Assembly (NCBI GenBank): GCA_943330745.2
Contig: CALQIX020000006.1
Coordinates: 62,001-126,000, forward strand
Direction: 5' to 3'
DNA: 64,000 bases
Source of the DNA: Lishizhenia tianjinensis
GTDB taxonomy: Bacteria > Bacteroidota > Bacteroidia > Flavobacteriales_D > Crocinitomicaceae
How positions within the stretch are numbered: position 1 is the first letter of the stretch; each line of letters starts with the position of its first letter. The position numbers and the translations under genes were made by a program. Below, piece after piece: positions 27,657 to 43,100 of this stretch. The notes under the pieces were generated by a model that was given only the letters and a program-made list of their open reading frames with translations, did not search any database and had not been told where the DNA came from.

Positions 27657-27998
27657 TTAATACATCAAGCTTTTCTTAGATGCATTTCTCCACTCAGCGT
27701 CGTATTTACTATCTGAAAAATAGATAATCAAATCGGCATCATATTTACTATCGCAGAAGAAGATTTTCTTTTTTGCATCGTATTTACTATCCGTAAAAAA
27801 CCACAATCCTTTATTATCCGTAGCATCGTATTTAGATGAGCATTTATGGACTACAAGATCTGCATCGTATTTGGAACTAGCCACAAAAACTTTTACATCC
27901 GCATCATACTTTGAACTGACGGAAAAAACCGTTTGGCTGTTATAAGAAAAAGAGAAAGCGAGTAGGGTTAAACAAATTAATTTTTTCATTTTTTTCAT
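27657..27998 (-). CDS. Secreted DUF6150-type repeat protein
   Basis: 113 residues. A signal peptide (LICLTLLAFSFSYNSQ) is followed by six repeats of about 13-16 residues, each built on S-K-Y-D-A (SSKYDADVKVFVA, SSKYDADLVVHKC, and so on), ending KKSLMY. The spacing of Tyr and Ala-Asp, and the GLWFF insert in the third repeat, fit my memory of DUF6150, in which the repeated core reads (K/Y)-x-(Y/H)-Q-A-(D/G); here it is SKYDA. An extended beta-solenoid is likely. Three Cys follow single repeats. Function unknown. Confidence 0.82.
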   Translation of the reverse strand: MKKMKKLICLTLLAFSFSYNSQTVFSVSSKYDADVKVFVASSKYDADLVVHKCSSKYDATDNKGLWFFTDSKYDAKKKIFFCDSKYDADLIIYFSDSKYDAEWRNASKKSLMY

Positions 27999-31706: not shown

Positions 31707-31799
31707 TGAACGAATATAATCAAAAACAAGGATGCCATTCAAAGAATTTCCATAAAAATAGAGTAATGTGTTTTGAATTATTGTACCTTCGATAACAGA

Positions 31800-32546
31800 A
31801 TGAATACACCAAAACTATGGTTCAGCCTCTATGATTTTTCCTTTGATTACAAAGGAGTAGAGCCTAGTTTTATCGATGAATCCTTTCCTTGGTCTGTTGA
31901 TTTTGAAGCCAATTGGCAAGTAGTTTTAGGTGAGCTAAATCAGTATTTAAAAAACAACCAACCGGAAGCCTATTTCAATACTTCCATGGTTAATGCAGAG
32001 AATAGTTGGAAAACTATTTCATTAAAATGGTGGGATATCGAATTTAGAAAAAGACAGTGTTATTTTCCTAAAACGATGGAAATTGTTCGGAAATATCCTG
32101 AAATTATTTCATTGTCGTTTAATCAATTAGCGCCAAAAGGGAAAATATTACCACACTGCGGAGATACGAATGCCATTTATCGATGTCATTTGGGATTGGA
32201 GGTTCCAGCCAGTCTTCCAGTCACCGGTTTTCGCGTAAGAGAAGAAACCCGTTCTTGGTCAAATGGTAAGTGGTTGATTTTTATGGATGCATACAACCAC
32301 GAGGCTTTTAATCTTTCGGACCAAAAGCGAATCATAATGGTTGTTGACGTATTGCGCCCAGATTTTCAATCATATAAACGAAAAGTTATAAGTGTTGTCC
32401 TGACTTCTTTGTTCCTACAAAAGCGCGCACAGCAATTGAAATTTCTATATAAAATGCCGCATGGAATGATCCGTTTTGTGGCTTTTCCGCTCAGACCATT
32501 GGCTTATTTAGGGATGAAAATGGTTAACTTGTTTAAGGTTTACTAG
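31800..32546 (+). CDS. Aspartyl/asparaginyl beta-hydroxylase-like dioxygenase
   Basis: 248 residues from ATG at 31800; an earlier TTG at 31773 is in frame but less likely. The family's double-stranded beta-helix core is present: LAPKGKILPHCGDTNAIYRC with iron ligand His119, HLGLEVP next, WLIFMDAYNHEAFN with the second ligand His167, and Arg177 (KRIIMVVDV) for 2-oxoglutarate. The last ~45 residues form a hydrophobic, basic tail (LKFLYKMPHGMIRFVAFPLRPL) that may touch the membrane. Substrates in this family are Asp/Asn side chains or, for LpxO, lipid A acyl chains. It converges on the sulfotransferase operon, the likely context. Confidence 0.85.
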   Translation: MNTPKLWFSLYDFSFDYKGVEPSFIDESFPWSVDFEANWQVVLGELNQYLKNNQPEAYFNTSMVNAENSWKTISLKWWDIEFRKRQCYFPKTMEIVRKYPEIISLSFNQLAPKGKILPHCGDTNAIYRCHLGLEVPASLPVTGFRVREETRSWSNGKWLIFMDAYNHEAFNLSDQKRIIMVVDVLRPDFQSYKRKVISVVLTSLFLQKRAQQLKFLYKMPHGMIRFVAFPLRPLAYLGMKMVNLFKVY

Positions 32547-32570
32547 GGATTTTGCGGAATTTGAGATCAC

Positions 32571-33620
32571 TTACACATCAATTTTTTTTGTTCGCCATTT
32601 TTTTACACTCAACTTTAACCAAAGTGGAATATGGTAATAGAATTGAAGCAAATACCTGCGGTAACAGAGAGCTAAAAACTGAAAATACATTTGTTTAAAA
32701 GAAAATTTTCTGGTTTTTGTATCACTCAATGAATACCCTAATTTTTGAAGTGTTTCTCCGCAAATTCGTTCAATTTGGCTGAGTAATCGTGTGTCTAATC
32801 TAGAGTTATATTGCCCAATTTTATTCGTATTCGGTTTCTGAGAGAGTCCGCTGTGAAAATCACGTAAATGTTCAATAAACAGAGGGGATACATCTCTTTT
32901 TTTTGCTTCTAAAAATGCTTCATATACCCCTTCAGTTTCCATCATTTTTGAATTAAAAGTGCAATTAATCCAATCGCAAATCTCACGCAAAGCACCTTCG
33001 GTTTCCATCATGAAATTCTCATAGCTTACAATTCGAAAATCACTTTTTGGCAGCTGTTCAAAGTTTCGATACGTATCGTTCCAGAGTGAAGCAAGGAAAA
33101 AAGGATGTTGATTCCAATTAAGATTTCGGTCTTTTTTGGATACAATATTATCACGAACATCCCTTGTTAATACCACGTACTTTGCATGCGGGAAAATTTG
33201 TTTCAATAATTCGAGGTGAAAAAAATACTTAATTTGTTTATCTACAATGCATGTAACCTGTGATTTGTCTTTTACATCTAAAAAATGCAAATAAGTAAGT
33301 TTAATGATTCGATTAAAAGTTAGAATGTCTTGGTGTTCCAAAAGGTTGGATAGAAAAACAGTTCGTTTGCTGAAATAGAGATCGGTATTTTTTTCGGCTA
33401 GTAAAAAAAAAGCATCAACATAGTTGTGAATATCGGTAATTGACCACTTGGTTTTATTTCGGTATTTTTTCCATAAATACAGTGCAAATGGTTCTTCGCT
33501 CGGACAAAGAATTTGCGGGTTCAAATTAAGCATCAAACTAAGCAAGGAGCTACCGGTTCTTTCCGTACAAAGCACAAAATGAATCGGTATTGAATCTATT
33601 TTTTCTGCTGTGAATTTCAT
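32571..33620 (-). CDS. PAPS-dependent sulfotransferase (third of three in tandem)
   Basis: 349 residues. The 5'-phosphosulfate loop is CTERTGSSLLSLML at about 18-31, and the 3'-phosphate site is YVVLTRDVRDNIVSKK. FRIVSYENFMMETEGALREIC is the usual later helix. The tail is basic and aromatic (YRRYLLQFYYHIPLWLKLSVKKWR), like the tails of the two upstream paralogues. The acceptor is unknown: glycan, lipid or tyrosine. It starts at the stop of the preceding gene with a 1-base overlap (TAATG). Confidence 0.9.
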   Translation of the reverse strand: MKFTAEKIDSIPIHFVLCTERTGSSLLSLMLNLNPQILCPSEEPFALYLWKKYRNKTKWSITDIHNYVDAFFLLAEKNTDLYFSKRTVFLSNLLEHQDILTFNRIIKLTYLHFLDVKDKSQVTCIVDKQIKYFFHLELLKQIFPHAKYVVLTRDVRDNIVSKKDRNLNWNQHPFFLASLWNDTYRNFEQLPKSDFRIVSYENFMMETEGALREICDWINCTFNSKMMETEGVYEAFLEAKKRDVSPLFIEHLRDFHSGLSQKPNTNKIGQYNSRLDTRLLSQIERICGETLQKLGYSLSDTKTRKFSFKQMYFQFLALCYRRYLLQFYYHIPLWLKLSVKKWRTKKIDV

Positions 33621-34669
33621 TATGCCTTTTTACGTTTGAGTTCAATGTTAGCAACGTATTTTTCAAAACGATTGACTTTGTATGAGATTGGTAAATAATA
33701 AAATAATGTGTCTTTTATTAAATTCACCCGGATTTTTACATTCAAGGGCAGGTGTTTCAGTCGAATCAAGTAGTTCTTTATTTTTTTTTGATTTGATTGA
33801 GAAGTATAATCAAAAATAGTCCCGATTTCGTTGCAAAAAGCTTCTGAAATTTCAATTTCCGTTTCGGTTAATCCGGTTTTCCATTTATCAATTCGGCTCG
33901 TGAAAATGGGTTGGGATAAATCTTCGTATTTTTTGCGTGCACGCTCAGATTGCTCAATTGCGATATCATTTTTATAGTGTTCATACCCCCTTCGTTCTAG
34001 TTGCCTTAATTCTTCCGAAAAAATGGGAGTTACACCAAAAAAATCGAATACTTGTTGCAAAATGGCATCAGATTCATGAACCAAATCTTCATAGCGAACA
34101 ACAAGTACTTGTTTTGGAAATTTCTTTTTCCACCGAAGAGCCTTTCTGGTAAAATAGGCCCAACGAATTGCATTAAAGGCAGCACGAGGAGACAATAAAT
34201 GAATACTTTCTTTACGGGATAAAATATTTGCTCGGTAATCACGAATCATTATAACGTATTTCGCTGATGGATTAATGGATGCTAATTCTGATAAAAAGAG
34301 TGTGTTTACTGGATTTTTGTCGATAATAATGGGTTTTTCTTTCTTAGGCAGAACAGCATGCTGAAATGAGGAATAGATCTCGTTGCACAATTCCAAATAC
34401 GTTCCATTAAATCCATTTGTAATGATTTCTTTAGGAAGTAAATATTCAAAACCCACATAGGGTTGTAGTTTACCAAAGGCCTTATTAAATCGATGAATTA
34501 GTTGAATATCTTGAGGCGAAAATGAATTTTTCTTCGCAAAAGCATGAGCAAAAAACACGCTGAAATAATTTTCAGGAGGGGCATGTAGTTCAGGATGTGA
34601 ACCAAGCAATGACATGAGCAAGGATGTTCCAGATCGACCAATTCCAATGACATAGTTTATTTGAGTCAT
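33620..34669 (-). CDS. PAPS-dependent sulfotransferase (second of three in tandem)
   Basis: 349 residues. PAPS-binding loops: VIGIGRSGTSLLMSLLGSHP at 7-26 and YVIMIRDYRANILSRKES around 140-157. It has the same length as the next gene but only motif-level likeness, so the three genes are old duplicates that have diverged in acceptor specificity. A 4-bp ATGA overlap couples it to the upstream paralogue. The tail is basic (IKNYLIRLKHLPLNVKIRVNL), perhaps membrane-associated. Confidence 0.9.
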   Translation of the reverse strand: MTQINYVIGIGRSGTSLLMSLLGSHPELHAPPENYFSVFFAHAFAKKNSFSPQDIQLIHRFNKAFGKLQPYVGFEYLLPKEIITNGFNGTYLELCNEIYSSFQHAVLPKKEKPIIIDKNPVNTLFLSELASINPSAKYVIMIRDYRANILSRKESIHLLSPRAAFNAIRWAYFTRKALRWKKKFPKQVLVVRYEDLVHESDAILQQVFDFFGVTPIFSEELRQLERRGYEHYKNDIAIEQSERARKKYEDLSQPIFTSRIDKWKTGLTETEIEISEAFCNEIGTIFDYTSQSNQKKIKNYLIRLKHLPLNVKIRVNLIKDTLFYYLPISYKVNRFEKYVANIELKRKKA

Positions 34670-35730
34670 GATGAAAATCCTTTTTCTTTGTTGTACAGTG
34701 ATCGTTTTACTACGTTCAAGTAATGGTGAATCTTCAACGAACGCAAGGCAAAGAATAGTTTAACCCGTAATCGCACTGGAAACGTAATAAGTAAAAAAAA
34801 GAATCTTCGAGTTGCATGAAAGTGATGCGTAGATTCATATCCATAATGAATCCCCAAATGTTTGGAAAGTAGTTCAGTTTGCTGAATTTCATGGGGGGTT
34901 AATCCCTTTTTCCAACTATCAATTGATCCTGCATGAATTGGTTTTGTGAGATCTTCAATCTTTTTTAGGATACGGGGATCGGGGTTTGCTGTTATTTTAT
35001 ACTTGTTAACGGTATCTTCAATTCGTTCTGTATAGTCAAAACAATTTGAATCGAACGAAAAATCTAGAAAATGTGCTAGTTTTTTAAGTTGATTTTCTGG
35101 TTCCATGACAAAGTCTTCATACCGTAAAATGTAGAGTCGATCTCCTAATTCTTGCCTCAATAAATTGATTTTCCGTAGGTAGCAGTTCCAAACTTCAGCA
35201 AAGAAAACTACCGATTTTTTCTCTTTAAATTGATGCTGACTTTTCATATTGGAAGCGACAAATCCTCTGTAATCACGAATACTCACACAAAATTTAGCGT
35301 CAGGATAGAGTTGTAGTAATTCCTTTACGTAAAAGGTGTACAAATTATTTTTATCAATAATGACCGTTGTTTCAGAGGCCGATTTTTGGTGAAGCGATAA
35401 ATGAACTTGTTTTGCGAAATCGGGGTAGTTCGCTAGTTGAAGAGAACTCAAATCTTTTTCAAGGAGTTCAATGTCGAATTGATTTAGTGGATTAGAAACA
35501 CTTTTTTTTACGGCTGAAAAAAAATCTACAACAGGTTGTAAATCAATCAATTTTGTTGAGGAAAGTTTAACTCGATCTTTTAAAAAAAGGACATGCTTTA
35601 CTTCAGGAGTTGCAATTACCCCCTTTGTATGATTCAATAACATCATGAGTAAAGTTGTTCCACTTCTTCCAGGCCCAATAATAAAATGAATGGGTGGATA
35701 CTTTTTTTGATCAGTCGCAAATTGTTTCAT
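34666..35730 (-). CDS. PAPS-dependent sulfotransferase (first of three in tandem)
   Basis: 354 residues. PAPS-binding loops: FIIGPGRSGTTLLMMLLNHT at 16-35 and FCVSIRDYRGFVASNMKS around 150-170. It contains the common LYILRYEDFVMEPENQLKKLA helix and the ETERL/HAGSIDSWKKGLT region found in bacterial carbohydrate-type sulfotransferases. Its start overlaps the end of the GT-C/TPR gene by 4 bp. The PAPS synthesis genes are not in this window. Confidence 0.9.
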   Translation of the reverse strand: MKQFATDQKKYPPIHFIIGPGRSGTTLLMMLLNHTKGVIATPEVKHVLFLKDRVKLSSTKLIDLQPVVDFFSAVKKSVSNPLNQFDIELLEKDLSSLQLANYPDFAKQVHLSLHQKSASETTVIIDKNNLYTFYVKELLQLYPDAKFCVSIRDYRGFVASNMKSQHQFKEKKSVVFFAEVWNCYLRKINLLRQELGDRLYILRYEDFVMEPENQLKKLAHFLDFSFDSNCFDYTERIEDTVNKYKITANPDPRILKKIEDLTKPIHAGSIDSWKKGLTPHEIQQTELLSKHLGIHYGYESTHHFHATRRFFFLLITFPVRLRVKLFFALRSLKIHHYLNVVKRSLYNKEKGFSS

Positions 35731-38159
35731 CGCTTTTGCGGAACTGGAATTTCACCTGATTTTATCCGTTGAACGTAGTTCTTCAGATTTTTCAATTCTC
35801 TTTCTAATGCTTGTATGCGCTCAACATCTGAAGCTGATTTATCTTTTTTGGTAGATAAATCGGCTTTTTCGCGGCTCAATTCCATTAATCCTTTTTTGAA
35901 ATTTTCTTTCGCTTGATCCACATCTCCGGTCGAGAAATAAGCATTTGCCATTTGAACGTATTGCGGTCCAAAATATCCTTTGGGATAGGCTTTCATGAAT
36001 TTTTTCTGAGAATCAATTAATAACGCATAATCCTCTAGCAACATCGCAAATTGATTGACAGAATTATAATAGGATTCTAATTGAGGTTTAATTACATAGG
36101 TTTTGTTGTAGTAGATTTTGGCAGAATCAAGATACAATTTTTTGAGGGTGAATAACTCATTTTGCAATTGTTCATCCGAAAGCGAGGAGGCTGTTTTTAG
36201 CTCTTTAATCACTTCCATCCGAAAAGAATTCAACATGCCCAAATTAGGTTTTGTTTTTGTTTGAAAGGCTCTGTTTAATTCAGTATTAATGGATTGTGCG
36301 AAATTATACCCTTGTAATTTATTATCTAAAGATTCTAGGTTGGTACTTAATTCGATTAGATTGGACAAGGACGCCTCATTGAACGCAATTTGAAGTTGTT
36401 TGATCGCGGAAACCTGAAATTGATTTATGATTGTTAGCGTTTTATATAACTTTTGCTTTCTGAAATAAGAATCTAAAGTGGGGGTAGTTTTTTGTCTTTC
36501 TGCTGATATTGGATACATTTTCAGCAAAGAATGATAGGATTCAGCCAATTTTGCATACGAATTACCAATATTGAGTATTCCTTCATAGTATTTAGTATTG
36601 AATGCAACTGATTTTTGAAAGGATGAAATGGCTTCAATATAATCGTATTTAAAGGAATAATTTAAAACTCCTATGTTATTCAAACTTGATTCATATTTTG
36701 GAAATACGGCTAAGGATCGTTTGTAAAATAGGATGGAAGAATCTACTTTTTGCATCATTTCCTGAAAGGTCCCAGTTCCATTTTGTTGAATGGAATAAAC
36801 CCCTTCTTGATATTCTGTTCCCAATAAGGAATTTACTTTTGCAGAGGTTCTCATGTTTTCAGAATCCGCCAAATACAAGGATGATTTTGAATTCCAGTCT
36901 TTATTGCGTTGAACTGAAAAAATGAAAAAAGGAATTGTGACTACTGCGAATGGTATTGCTAGTTTTGTATTCCAGGATCGTTCATGCAGATCAATCGAAT
37001 AAAATTGAAATACACCCCATACTACCAAAATACACAATCCAAATGAGGCGGTGAATGCAAAACGTTCTCCTACAATCCCAACCATTGGATTAATTAAATT
37101 GGCAGCACCACCAATGGCTAGTAAAAAGAACAATATTCCAAAAGCGGGAAGTGATTTTTTAAATATTCCGCGAAAAGCAAAAAACAAACCGATTAGCAAG
37201 ATAATTAGCCCCAGAAAAAACTGCCAACCGGAAAAACCAACGAGCGGGATGGAATTATACCCGTAATAAAAATTTAATGGGTAAGGAAAAATGAACTTTT
37301 GAATGTAAAATAAGTTTGATGTAAAATACATAGGGATCCGTTCCCAAAAACCAAGTTCAAATAAAGGATTTTCAATGTAGCTAAAAAAACGCGTTTTATC
37401 TTTTTCTAATAAACCAGATTTCATGAATTTCATGGAATATTGCGCAACGAATAGAACAAGGAATATGACTGCTGTTTTTTTCCAGTCCAATTTTCTGAAA
37501 AACCAAATCATTAAAGGGATAATAACAACAAATGGAAGATTTGATTTTTTGGAAAGCAGGGATAAAATGAGTAAAATGGAAGCATGGATGAGATAATGCC
37601 ATTTTTGTTTGTCGATATATTTAAAAGTATAAATTGCCGATAGAGTTGCAAATATCAAACTGAGCATCTCGTCTCTATTTTTTAAATTATTTACAACTTC
37701 AGAATGCAGCGGATGGATCAAAAATAGACAAACTACTAGGCCTGAAAAAAGAGAGGCCTGTTGTTGAAACAATACTTGCAACAGTTGAAAAAGTAATATT
37801 CCGCAAACGGCATACAAGGCAATATTGATGAAGTGTGAAATATGCACACGATTGGTTGATTCACCAAAAATAGATTTTTCAATGGCATAAGAAAGGGTAA
37901 CAATGGGCCGATATTCATAATTCTGTTTTCCATCTATCGCATAATTTGATGTGAAAATCGATTTGATTCCAGCAATGCCTTTCTCTACGTTTTGATGTGC
38001 TTTTCTGTCTGTACTAGTAACTAATTCGTCGTCTAATGAATAACCGTTAGAGATTGAATTTCCGTAAAATAGAAATGAAATTAATGCAAATAACATGAAC
38101 CATGATTTTGGTTGCATATTGAGTTTTTTAATCGGTGCAGGAACCTCTTTTTTTGCCAT
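35727..38159 (-). CDS. GT-C type membrane glycosyltransferase with C-terminal TPRs (TMTC-like)
   Basis: 810 residues. The N-terminal ~390 residues have about ten membrane segments and start like TMTC/PMT-type enzymes: FYGNSISNGYSLDDELV in the first outside loop holds the Asp-Asp pair of the GT-C active site, followed by YEYRPIVTLSYAIE. The C-terminal ~400 residues are soluble and helical with TPR units (YKRSLAVFPKYESSLNNIGVL, AISSFQKSVAFNTKYYEGILN, YFSTGDVDQAKENFKKGLME). TMTC enzymes add mannose to protein targets held by the TPRs; donor and target are unknown here. It is the first gene of a four-gene coupled operon with three sulfotransferases. Confidence 0.87.
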   Translation of the reverse strand: MAKKEVPAPIKKLNMQPKSWFMLFALISFLFYGNSISNGYSLDDELVTSTDRKAHQNVEKGIAGIKSIFTSNYAIDGKQNYEYRPIVTLSYAIEKSIFGESTNRVHISHFINIALYAVCGILLFQLLQVLFQQQASLFSGLVVCLFLIHPLHSEVVNNLKNRDEMLSLIFATLSAIYTFKYIDKQKWHYLIHASILLILSLLSKKSNLPFVVIIPLMIWFFRKLDWKKTAVIFLVLFVAQYSMKFMKSGLLEKDKTRFFSYIENPLFELGFWERIPMYFTSNLFYIQKFIFPYPLNFYYGYNSIPLVGFSGWQFFLGLIILLIGLFFAFRGIFKKSLPAFGILFFLLAIGGAANLINPMVGIVGERFAFTASFGLCILVVWGVFQFYSIDLHERSWNTKLAIPFAVVTIPFFIFSVQRNKDWNSKSSLYLADSENMRTSAKVNSLLGTEYQEGVYSIQQNGTGTFQEMMQKVDSSILFYKRSLAVFPKYESSLNNIGVLNYSFKYDYIEAISSFQKSVAFNTKYYEGILNIGNSYAKLAESYHSLLKMYPISAERQKTTPTLDSYFRKQKLYKTLTIINQFQVSAIKQLQIAFNEASLSNLIELSTNLESLDNKLQGYNFAQSINTELNRAFQTKTKPNLGMLNSFRMEVIKELKTASSLSDEQLQNELFTLKKLYLDSAKIYYNKTYVIKPQLESYYNSVNQFAMLLEDYALLIDSQKKFMKAYPKGYFGPQYVQMANAYFSTGDVDQAKENFKKGLMELSREKADLSTKKDKSASDVERIQALERELKNLKNYVQRIKSGEIPVPQKR

Positions 38160-41362: not shown

Positions 41363-42277
41363 CTAATATACCATGTGTCTTTCTTTCTTTTCCTCAAAAA
41401 TATCAGAAATTGTGATTAAAATTCCTGTTTCCTCCACATTACCAAAGTCTGGATTTACTGCCGTTCCAAAAGTTTTCATGGTTGGAGATAAATGCATATA
41501 GATATTTACCAATGGCGGAATAAATTCTCCATTTTCACGAACATACGTATTCAACACTTTCATTCCTTCTTTAAAATCCAATCCGTCCAACTGCATGTCA
41601 AATTTAGTTTTATCGTAGTGTTGAATGAGTGGATTGAAGGGTTGCATCAAATGTTCACGGTCTGGAAAATAATGATGCATGAAATGCAATAAGAAATCTC
41701 TGCACTCAAAATTATAGGTTGGATACATGGTAACTTTACCAAAAAAATATTTTATTTCAGGATTCATTATCGTAATTGCACCCAAGCCATCCCAAATATT
41801 ATCTAAAGCAAATAGTCCTTTTTTAGGATTGGTCGTTGCTTGAAAATTGGGTTGTATCCAACTTCTTCCAAGTTCAATCGTGTATGGGAGATAATCTCTC
41901 GTAAAGTGAGCACTAAATTCAAAATAATGACTGGTTGATAGATGTATGTGTCCAGCATCATCAATCGCCTTGTCGCAACGAATAAATCGATATCCACCAA
42001 TGATTTCCTCATCTTCAGGTGACCAAAGAATCAATTGATCGTAGCAATGTTCATGCGTGTCGTATTCATCTAAGTCAACAGATTCTCCTGTTCCTCCGCC
42101 TGATTGTCGAAAAGTCACTTCACGTAATCTTCCGATTTCCTGCAATACATGAGGAGCATTGTGTTGATTTACAACGTAAATTTCATTTCCACCTTTTCGG
42201 GTTGTACGCACAAATCGATCGGTGTTTAATTCGCTTTTTAGCAATTCTTTATCTATCGCCTCTATAATCGGTTTCAT
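41363..42277 (-). CDS. GNAT-type N-acyltransferase (GlsB-like)
   Basis: 304 residues. A GNAT domain of the hemolysin-like type: IGRLREVTFRQSGGGTGES near residue 47, DEYDTHEHCYDQLILWSPED, IIGGYRFIRC, and the P-loop-like ELGRSWIQPNFQ. The second half continues to the C-terminus (FECRDFLLHFMHHYFPD). It lies 7 bases downstream of a PlsC-like acyltransferase. In Bacteroides the pair GlsB (N-acylation of glycine) and GlsA (O-acylation) makes glycine lipids, and in other bacteria the analogous pair makes ornithine lipids. The amino-acid substrate here is an inference. Confidence 0.83.
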   Translation of the reverse strand: MKPIIEAIDKELLKSELNTDRFVRTTRKGGNEIYVVNQHNAPHVLQEIGRLREVTFRQSGGGTGESVDLDEYDTHEHCYDQLILWSPEDEEIIGGYRFIRCDKAIDDAGHIHLSTSHYFEFSAHFTRDYLPYTIELGRSWIQPNFQATTNPKKGLFALDNIWDGLGAITIMNPEIKYFFGKVTMYPTYNFECRDFLLHFMHHYFPDREHLMQPFNPLIQHYDKTKFDMQLDGLDFKEGMKVLNTYVRENGEFIPPLVNIYMHLSPTMKTFGTAVNPDFGNVEETGILITISDIFEEKKERHMVY

Positions 42278-42284
42278 AAACTAT

Positions 42285-43100
42285 TTATTTTGTGCTTGTA
42301 TAGATAATTTCCTTAATCATTTCAGAAACTTCTTTATCTGTTTTTTCTGGATGATAGGAGTTTAAATCAATACAGTCTTTAACATTGAATCGAATTGTTT
42401 TGTTTTTTTGTTTATACATTTCATCAGCCAAATACAACATTTCAATATTCGATTTTACGCCGAATTTTTGCCGAATTTCAGATAAACGATAAAAGAAATT
42501 ACTCAATCCCCCATCGATGTGTATCGGTACAATTTTTCGGTCATATTTTCGACTTAAGGTAATGAATGTTTTTTTCCATTCAAGGTCCATTACTCGTCCT
42601 TCTTGTCGGCGACTTACTTTTCCAGCAGGAAAAATACAAACTGTATCATCAGATTCGAAAAGAGAATCGATTTGATTTCGTTTATTTCCGTCATTTTTTC
42701 CAAATTTATTGACACCTAGAAATAACCCGCGCATATTGGTTAAATTCAACAATAAATCATTCACAATAAATTTAAAATCCTGTCTCCTTTGAGCAACTCC
42801 CGAAACAAAAGCAATAGCATCCATTCCACCTAAAGGGTGATTCATTACAATTACAATTCGTTCATTCGTAGGTATTTTTTCAATTCCGTCAATGATGACT
42901 TCAATGTTAAAATACTCCATGATAGCATGACAAAAATCGATATCATATGTATCTTTATTCTTTGCCAAGAATTCATTAATATCATCTTGATGAAGAATTC
43001 GTTCCAAATAACGCACGGCAAACCCCGGAAGCCATTTCAATAAACGGGGGTTTTTACTCTTTATGAGCTTTCTGATGTCAATGAATTTATCCTCTTTCAC
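42285..43100 (-). CDS. 1-acyl-glycerol-phosphate-type acyltransferase (GlsA-like)
   Basis: 271 residues. The acyltransferase motif NHPLGGMDAI (H-x4-D) lies near residue 90 and the FPAGKVSRR turn (block III) near 150. There is no clear membrane helix. It matches lysophospholipid acyltransferases; with the downstream GNAT gene it forms the GlsA/GlsB arrangement for O-acylation of an N-acyl amino acid. A plain membrane-lipid acyltransferase is the alternative. Confidence 0.85.
   Translation of the reverse strand: MKEDKFIDIRKLIKSKNPRLLKWLPGFAVRYLERILHQDDINEFLAKNKDTYDIDFCHAIMEYFNIEVIIDGIEKIPTNERIVIVMNHPLGGMDAIAFVSGVAQRRQDFKFIVNDLLLNLTNMRGLFLGVNKFGKNDGNKRNQIDSLFESDDTVCIFPAGKVSRRQEGRVMDLEWKKTFITLSRKYDRKIVPIHIDGGLSNFFYRLSEIRQKFGVKSNIEMLYLADEMYKQKNKTIRFNVKDCIDLNSYHPEKTDKEVSEMIKEIIYTSTK

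Follow-up and report, generated by a model that had tools for sequence, protein, structure and literature searches.

A sulfotransferase and glycosyltransferase gene island in Lishizhenia tianjinensis as the candidate modification-and-transfer end of a sulfated, acylated amino-sugar glycan pathway

A five-gene island conserved in sister genomes

We analysed a 64,000-nt stretch of DNA from Lishizhenia tianjinensis (assembly GCA_943330745.2, contig CALQIX020000006.1, positions 62,001–126,000), here called the window, and give coordinates relative to it. It contains an island of five genes encoding a GT-C membrane glycosyltransferase with a C-terminal tetratricopeptide repeat (TPR) array (GTC), three sulfotransferases (ST1–ST3) and a 2-oxoglutarate/Fe(II) oxygenase (HYD1) (Table 1). 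A preliminary description made from the letters alone had listed this gene set, overlaps of 4, 4 and 1 bp (GTC/ST1, ST1/ST2 and ST2/ST3) and a gap of 24 bases between the stops of the convergent HYD1 and ST3 genes, all of which were reproduced in the open reading frame (ORF) coordinates. The HYD1 ORF can start at 31773 or at 31800, where there is an ATG, and ends at 32546.

Table 1 Genes of the island, in window coordinates
Gene	Product	Coordinates	Strand	Features
HYD1	2-oxoglutarate/Fe(II) oxygenase, PF05118 (OlsC/LpxO/AspH superfamily)	31800-32546	+	248 aa; His119, His167 and Arg177 conserved
ST3	PF13469 sulfotransferase	32571-33620	-	349 aa; P-loop variant TERTGSS; own clade with members beyond the genus
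ST2	PF13469 sulfotransferase	33620-34669	-	349 aa; overlaps ST3 by 1 bp and ST1 by 4 bp
ST1	PF13469 sulfotransferase	34666-35730	-	354 aa; best PDB matches TPST1 and the CurM sulfotransferase
GTC	GT-C membrane glycosyltransferase with C-terminal TPR array	35727-38159	-	810 aa; Asp43-Asp44 in first external loop; TMTC-like

The five genes were found in identical order in two close sister genomes (loci L055 and L056; HYD1 92% identical) and in a third genome (L057; HYD1 63% identical); here and below, L numbers denote fetched loci, C numbers contigs of the window's genome and G numbers genomes, G000 being the window's own assembly. Between the window and L055/L056, dN/dS was 0.13 for HYD1, 0.16–0.18 for ST3, 0.14–0.19 for ST2, 0.10–0.20 for ST1 and 0.13 for GTC, and all five genes are under purifying selection. 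Given the shared order in three sister genomes and these ratios, the arrangement is not a product of chance. Synonymous divergence from L055 was 0.06–0.11 for the three STs, below that of HYD1 (0.27) and GTC (0.31; 0.17 against L056), so that the ST block looks as if it had recently been exchanged.

Partner genes and cluster variants

With the HYD1 alignment as sole query, one search of genome contigs returned 50 loci, in which we scored neighbouring genes using profiles and thresholds made within the analysis; counts are limited to the stretch fetched per locus. STs were present in 22 loci (1–5 each), GTC in 18, a GNAT acyltransferase in 22, a GT2 glycosyltransferase in 22, FabH in 18 and a second PF05118 enzyme (HYD2) in 19. 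At least one of ST, GTC, GNAT, GT2 and FabH accompanied HYD1 in 26 of the 50 loci and all five did so in 11, while STs at E ≤ 1e-20 were found in 40 of the 50 genomes. In L058, a single run of genes reads HYD2, HYD1, ST, ST, ST, GNAT, GT2, SDR, FabH, acyl carrier protein (ACP), FabH, GTC, and the order in the window is the same minus HYD2 and minus the GNAT-to-FabH block. Most of the loci inspected have a gene for a short ACP, marked by a W-S-S-M motif, between the two FabH genes; its PP-binding score was 19.4 bits in L060 and 22.9 bits in L124 (cut-off 20.8). The Cys-His-Asn residues of FabH are intact in 141 of 141 rows.

In the window's genome the genes missing from the island lie on other contigs, with GT2-GNAT-HYD2 on C15 (L035), SDR-FabH2-ACP on C39 (L124) and FabH1 on C3 (L125). 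Judged by these matches, the set is complete yet scattered over four contigs. The single pathway put forward in the preliminary description survives in that its genes go together, but the island is only a fragment, the core ACP/FabH/GNAT/GT2 cassette lying elsewhere in the genome.

A second survey used the GNAT profile (A4), which was partly built from loci found with the hydroxylase, and it is therefore not fully independent of the first. At E ≤ 1e-15, the profile matched 79 places in 78 of 395 class genomes, and 77 loci were fetched, two being already in the set. The core GNAT, GT2 and FabH genes occurred together in 63 of the 77. Among these core loci, ACP was found in 57, SDR in 34, two FabH genes in 32, GTC in 23, HYD in 18 and ST in 15, and 25 of the 32 core loci with two FabH genes and an SDR also held HYD or ST. 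By Fisher tests that treat genomes as independent, ST was associated with GTC (13 both, 2 ST only, 10 GTC only, 38 neither; p = 7.6e-6), as was HYD (13 both, 5 HYD only, 10 GTC only, 35 neither; p = 3.7e-4).

Within the genus (11 genomes, the window's included), a strong GTC match goes with long STs and a pair of hydroxylases in each of four genomes. No hydroxylase or long ST was found in the remaining seven, two of which have a weak GTC match and a short ST-like ORF. GTC adjoins a long ST in all four carriers; in G076 the contig breaks off behind the first ST, and in G108 two other genes part the STs. The linkage of GT-C gene and STs on which the preliminary description had built is borne out both here and in the core loci. 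Adjacency of hydroxylase and ST within the genus is confined to the window's genome. The sets overlap: L063, L079, L085, L090 and L094 are apparently contigs of G108, G100, G076, G019 and G075, and L135 is apparently the L069 contig. These six locus names were kept in the counts of GTC rows, HYD1 loci, site residues and tails.

The clusters vary in content. In five loci (L065 and L067–L070) there are further genes for relatives of a carrier protein, of an AMP-binding enzyme, of an acyl-CoA dehydrogenase and of a Trp_halogenase-family enzyme (Pfam on the L065 copies). This set, of a type known from halogenated pyrrole pathways, could add a halogenated acyl group, and it adjoins the STs at L065:11926-18782, in L067–L070 and, by eye, in L053. 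Six others (L060, L072, L074, L075, L097 and L098) bring in an MBOAT enzyme together with a partner (Pfam on L060), and G075 (as L049/L050) and L092 bring in Cupin_8 oxygenases and an FG-GAP/ASPIC protein, the latter with a type IX secretion system (T9SS) tail in G075. A further group contained, of the profiles used, only ACP-FabH-GT2-GNAT. Around the core cassette at L160:8560-19543, several more ST-like ORFs of other types were seen by eye. Overall, a constant core for sugar acylation is combined with decorations that can be exchanged. Separately, positions 27657-27998 of the window encode a small secreted-looking protein with several SSKYDA-like repeats.

Sulfotransferases, hydroxylase and glycosyltransferase

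The three STs share 25–29% identity with one another and score 87.5, 89.5 and 82.5 bits against PF13469 (cut-off 27). Across 35 ST rows, residues E42 and R153 of the site for 3'-phosphoadenosine 5'-phosphosulfate (PAPS) are invariant and S161 is conserved in at least 90%. The family profile matched the sulfotransferase domains of polyketide synthases (PKS) and CurM first in the PDB (1.6e-25 and 3.2e-24), followed by tyrosylprotein sulfotransferase (TPST; 7.6e-24). The ST3 model (pLDDT 90.5) superposed on human and tick TPST with Z 17.9–18.8, on an olefin synthase sulfotransferase domain with 18.3 and on CurM with 17.8, the next match scoring 12.8. The preliminary description had called all three full-length PAPS sulfotransferases with intact binding loops, which agrees with the PF13469 scores and the modelled fold of ST3, with the nuance that the P-loop is GRSGTT/GRSGTS in ST1 and ST2 and TERTGSS in ST3.

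In a tree of 85 STs, from which the six apparently duplicate locus names were omitted, each of ST1–ST3 belonged to a supported clade of its own that extends beyond the genus. They are thus old paralogues, probably acting on different sites. Assignment to NoeE was rejected, scores falling below the cut-off, and a scan of viral contigs with ST1 found no relative. Two further observations concern the family: a 195-aa PF13469-related protein is encoded at L036:6406-6993 (G000, contig C5), with similar short ORFs in G040 and G084, which have no island, and in G108; and one ST is identical in G069 (L053; listed with 5% contamination) and the L070 contig, a sign of shared or misbinned DNA.

HYD1 scores 137.5 bits against PF05118, and the two His and one Arg of its site are present in 102 of 102 rows, duplicates included. 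Its best curated models are OlsC (105 bits, cut-off 450) and LpxO (76 bits, cut-off 500), and its closest solved structure is human AspH (1.9e-15). Identification as OlsC or LpxO proper was rejected because both scores lie below the NCBIfam equivalog cut-offs. Hydrophobic and basic residues abound in the final 45 positions of HYD1 (102 rows) and of the STs (87 rows), where acidic residues make up 2.4% and 4.4%, compared with 11.7% and 11.6% elsewhere; no such enrichment was found in the last 45 residues of HYD2 (34 rows). These tails hint at work at a membrane surface and suggest that HYD1 and the STs act at the inner membrane on a lipid-linked intermediate. In two metagenome-assembled genomes, labelled Gammaproteobacteria and Lysobacterales (L095:3-3441 and L096:2-3777), two to three tandem HYD1-like genes lie, by eye, directly downstream of adenylation/carrier genes resembling non-ribosomal peptide synthetases. 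Given this placement, the HYD1 subfamily may tailor small molecules.

For GTC, Pfam returned PMT_2 at 30 bits (cut-off 26.1), with TPR matches under their cut-offs. A model built from a 36-member alignment (mean pLDDT 88) shows a TPR array at residues ~438–805, and its residues ~7–450 align to the GT-C enzymes STT3 (Z 20.1; r.m.s.d. 4.5 over 341 residues), Pmt4 (18.4), PglB (17.2) and ArnT (16.0). The assignment of the GT-C fold rests on this second structural comparison rather than on the Foldseek ranking, in which TPR proteins predominated and PglB appeared at 4.3e-4 with a low TM-score; a single-protein PDB search with GTC gave TPR proteins only. The modelled likeness to STT3, Pmt, PglB and ArnT does not decide the acceptor.

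In 57 GTC rows, a few of them duplicates, Asp43 is kept in 55, Asp44 in 56, Tyr83 in 52, Arg84 in 55, Pro85 in 56 and Arg366 in 56. By eye, these recall TMTC motifs, which a study of that family gives as DD, SHKSYRP and an Arg before transmembrane helix 10; the same study already notes full-length prokaryotic relatives (PMC7801869). PF08409 (TMTC_DUF1736) had no match in the window's GTC at E ≤ 1, while 14 of 36 relatives matched it. TMTC proper was rejected on that ground, and we call the enzyme TMTC-like. The label given in the preliminary description thus holds at family level (GT-C fold, Asp-Asp loop and C-terminal TPRs) and stops short of the PF08409 domain.

A proposed pathway

We propose, with a probability of about 0.58, that the five genes form the modification-and-transfer end of a pathway for a sulfated, hydroxylated, N-acylated amino-sugar glycan. 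The acyl-sugar element of this proposal rests on three likenesses. The GNAT profile is nearest in the PDB to FdhC (2e-10), which we take to be a sugar N-acyltransferase with a hydroxybutyryl donor, and also matches PseH (3.2e-7). GT2 has PgfS (95 bits) and ArnC (91 bits) as its best curated models, far below their cut-offs of 500 and 529. Finally, relatives' clusters hold a β-ketoacyl-ACP synthase (KAS), an ACP, a second KAS and a ketoreductase together, a set that the window's genome splits over C39 and C3. By enzyme kind they recall the ketoacyl-ACP synthase genes wfpC and wfpE, the ACP gene wfpD and the reductase gene wfpF of Flavobacterium psychrophilum, which are predicted to yield the 3,5-dihydroxyhexanoyl group of its O-antigen, placed on Qui2NAc4N by the PglD-like wfpG (PMC6519341).

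On this model, a short (di)hydroxyacyl group, for example 3-hydroxybutanoyl or 3,5-dihydroxyhexanoyl, would be assembled on the dedicated ACP by the pair of KAS III enzymes and the ketoreductase, and GNAT would move it from the ACP to a nucleotide sugar, at its amino group. HYD1 and HYD2, both PF05118 enzymes, could add further hydroxyls, and the three STs could each sulfate a different hydroxyl, on acyl group or sugar, using PAPS. The ArnC-like GT2 would load the sugar onto undecaprenyl phosphate; once flipped, the sugar would be transferred by GTC, on the periplasmic side, to an acceptor at the surface, which might be O-antigen or another glycan, a lipid or a protein. We infer the order of these steps, the sugar, the acceptor and the product.

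Several observations weigh against this proposal. Spermidine acetyltransferases rank between FdhC and PseH for the GNAT profile, GNAT scores 50 bits on the PseH model (cut-off 93), and in F. psychrophilum acyl transfer falls to a PglD-like enzyme, unlike the GNAT here. The STs are equally near to tyrosine and to acyl sulfotransferases. For 24 of the 50 HYD1 loci, no ST, GTC, GNAT, GT2 or FabH lay within the stretch fetched; 17 of these 24 genomes have an ST elsewhere, two of them weaker ones only, and seven have none. In G076, G100 and G108, the hydroxylase lies apart from the STs, though in the same genomes; it still belongs to the gene set, as 22 HYD1 loci hold STs and 18 hold GTC, and the linkage raised in the preliminary description holds in part. 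In the 63 core loci, HYD and ST were not significantly associated (7 both, 11 HYD only, 8 ST only, 37 neither; p = 0.10) and thus seem to be decorations that replace or add to each other, not steps of a fixed chain; moreover, none of the Fisher p-values is corrected for relatedness. Finally, the PAPS supply that the proposed sulfation calls for was not found in the window's assembly, which is 99.94% complete: kinase for adenosine 5'-phosphosulfate (APS; PF01583) was absent, with the control found in 11 of 14, as was CysD, found in 7 of 8 other genomes tested, and the cysDNC DNA of a sister was unmatched in a DNA search run without a positive control.

Alternative explanations

These absences would fit STs that are relics or use another donor in the window's genome, all the more as the other 19 of 19 family genomes with strong PF13469 matches have an APS kinase. 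In the underlying hand-tallied table of 120 family genomes (ST E ≤ 1e-10, kinase E ≤ 1e-30), the kinase was present in 19 of 20 genomes with strong PF13469, the window's being the sole exception, compared with 23 of 100 others. Nevertheless, we consider this explanation quite unlikely, since dN/dS is 0.10–0.20 for all three STs and the contigs that bear cysC-cysD-cysN in the sisters G120 and G121 are short (16 and 14 kb), the kind of place that assemblies can miss. An assembly gap is accordingly the likeliest reason for the missing APS kinase and CysD, with loss possible too; PAPS absence as a lineage trait was rejected, as these close sisters carry cysDNC. APS kinase was found in 45 of the 50 HYD1 genomes, both close sisters included, and in L074 it directly adjoins the STs. 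A tailoring of glycine lipids, in which HYD1 would hydroxylate the products of GlsB and GlsA and the other genes would be unrelated neighbours, is very unlikely indeed. GlsB and GlsA do lie at 41363-43100, above their NCBIfam cut-offs and a few genes upstream of GTC, and OlsC, the best curated model for HYD1, is an ornithine-lipid hydroxylase. However, among the three island-keeping loci GlsB stands beside the island in L055 only, being absent from the 20.7 kb fetched of L057 (L056 stops short of it), and 22 of 50 loci keep STs next to HYD1; the GlsA/GlsB neighbourhood was therefore rejected as a guide to the function of the island.

The remaining alternatives concern the acceptor. If the TMTC-like enzyme O-glycosylated exported proteins held by its TPRs, the STs might sulfate tyrosines and HYD1 hydroxylate Asp/Asn, which would suit the top match of ST3 (TPST, Z 18.8), the best PDB match of HYD1 (AspH), the resemblance of GTC to the protein glycosyltransferases STT3 and Pmt4, and the T9SS-tailed FG-GAP/ASPIC protein encoded in the G075 cluster, a relative of which is encoded in L092. 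We nonetheless judge this unlikely: the window's island shows no substrate protein, ST3 is matched just as well by PKS acyl sulfotransferases (Z 17.8–18.3), the best curated models of HYD1 (OlsC and LpxO, below cut-off) are lipid hydroxylases, and PAPS and 2-oxoglutarate enzymes without a signal are expected in the cytosol, whereas the GT-C active site is periplasmic. The commonest partners, GNAT, GT2 and FabH, point to an acylated sugar as the substrate, and the protein entertained in the preliminary description is not supported. We likewise regard as doubtful a composite in which the TMTC relative glycosylates exported proteins with an amino sugar bearing a polyketide-like acyl chain, hydroxylated and then sulfated at as many as three positions or more, with the halogenase-containing set alongside in some lineages and the whole modular and variable across Bacteroidota. 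A tentative but serious possibility, short of an even chance, is that the donor pathway is the one proposed and the glycan a side branch on O-antigen or lipid A, as with GtrC or ArnT, the TPRs merely holding a partner complex. GT2 resembles ArnC and the GTC model matches ArnT (Z 16); ABC-type genes for polysaccharide export are found close to the core in two of four class loci read by eye (L184 and L193, the latter with a DegT-like aminotransferase); the cysDNC genes of the sister G121 also lie, by eye, beside polysaccharide export genes; and N-hydroxyacyl sugars are known in Flavobacterium O-antigen (PMC6519341). Set against this, GT-C plus a TPR array is the architecture of TMTC, tied to protein acceptors in animals (PMC7801869), and no O-antigen locus was recognised among the ORFs listed around the window's genes.

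Implications and comparison with known systems

If the amino-sugar glycan pathway is as proposed, it probably gives cells a coat of sulfated sugars that bear small groups resembling fatty acids. It would bring three kinds of enzyme found in Bacteroidota (the TMTC-like GT-C/TPR proteins, the PF13469 STs that stand free and the PF05118 oxygenases) into one biosynthetic context and suggest where Bacteroidota may place sulfate on their own surface. With the core cassette at 63 loci from the 395-genome class sample, many Bacteroidota may make the glycan, and structural work could draw on the natural variation among clusters that differ in their hydroxylases, their STs or their MBOAT or halogenase sets.

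The combination of undecaprenyl-sugar/GT-C glycosylation, an O-antigen-type acyl cassette, hydroxylation and sulfation is apparently undescribed; like the preliminary description, which knew of no system with this set, we found no account of it in the open-access literature. Its parts have known counterparts. The two KAS, the ACP and the ketoreductase are likened to wfpC–wfpG by enzyme kinds, and the wfpC-D-E-F lettering suggests the same order; there, the product enters a Wzx/Wzy polymer, whereas here the genes are joined by an ArnC-like GT2, hydroxylases, STs and a GT-C/TPR enzyme. FdhC and PseH are matched by the GNAT profile, but spermidine acetyltransferases score likewise, and the acyl donor here is probably a dedicated ACP. 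CurM and olefin-synthase domains and TPST are the nearest solved relatives of the ST family by sequence and of ST3 by fold, while the window's STs are free-standing, three in a row, and have hydrophobic-basic tails. HYD1 shares the PF05118 domain and the two His and Arg with OlsC, LpxO and AspH, although it scores far below the curated cut-offs and its relatives cluster with ACP/KAS genes. GTC has the GT-C membrane part, Asp-Asp loop, YRP motif and C-terminal TPRs of the O-mannosyltransferases TMTC1–4, but it gave no match to PF08409 and its partners are bacterial genes. Finally, the pairing of an ArnC/PgfS-like GT2 with a GT-C enzyme is that of the ArnC/ArnT and PgfS-type undecaprenyl-phosphate sugar systems; here, the GT2 scores far under the curated cut-offs, and decoration with acyl groups and sulfate is added.

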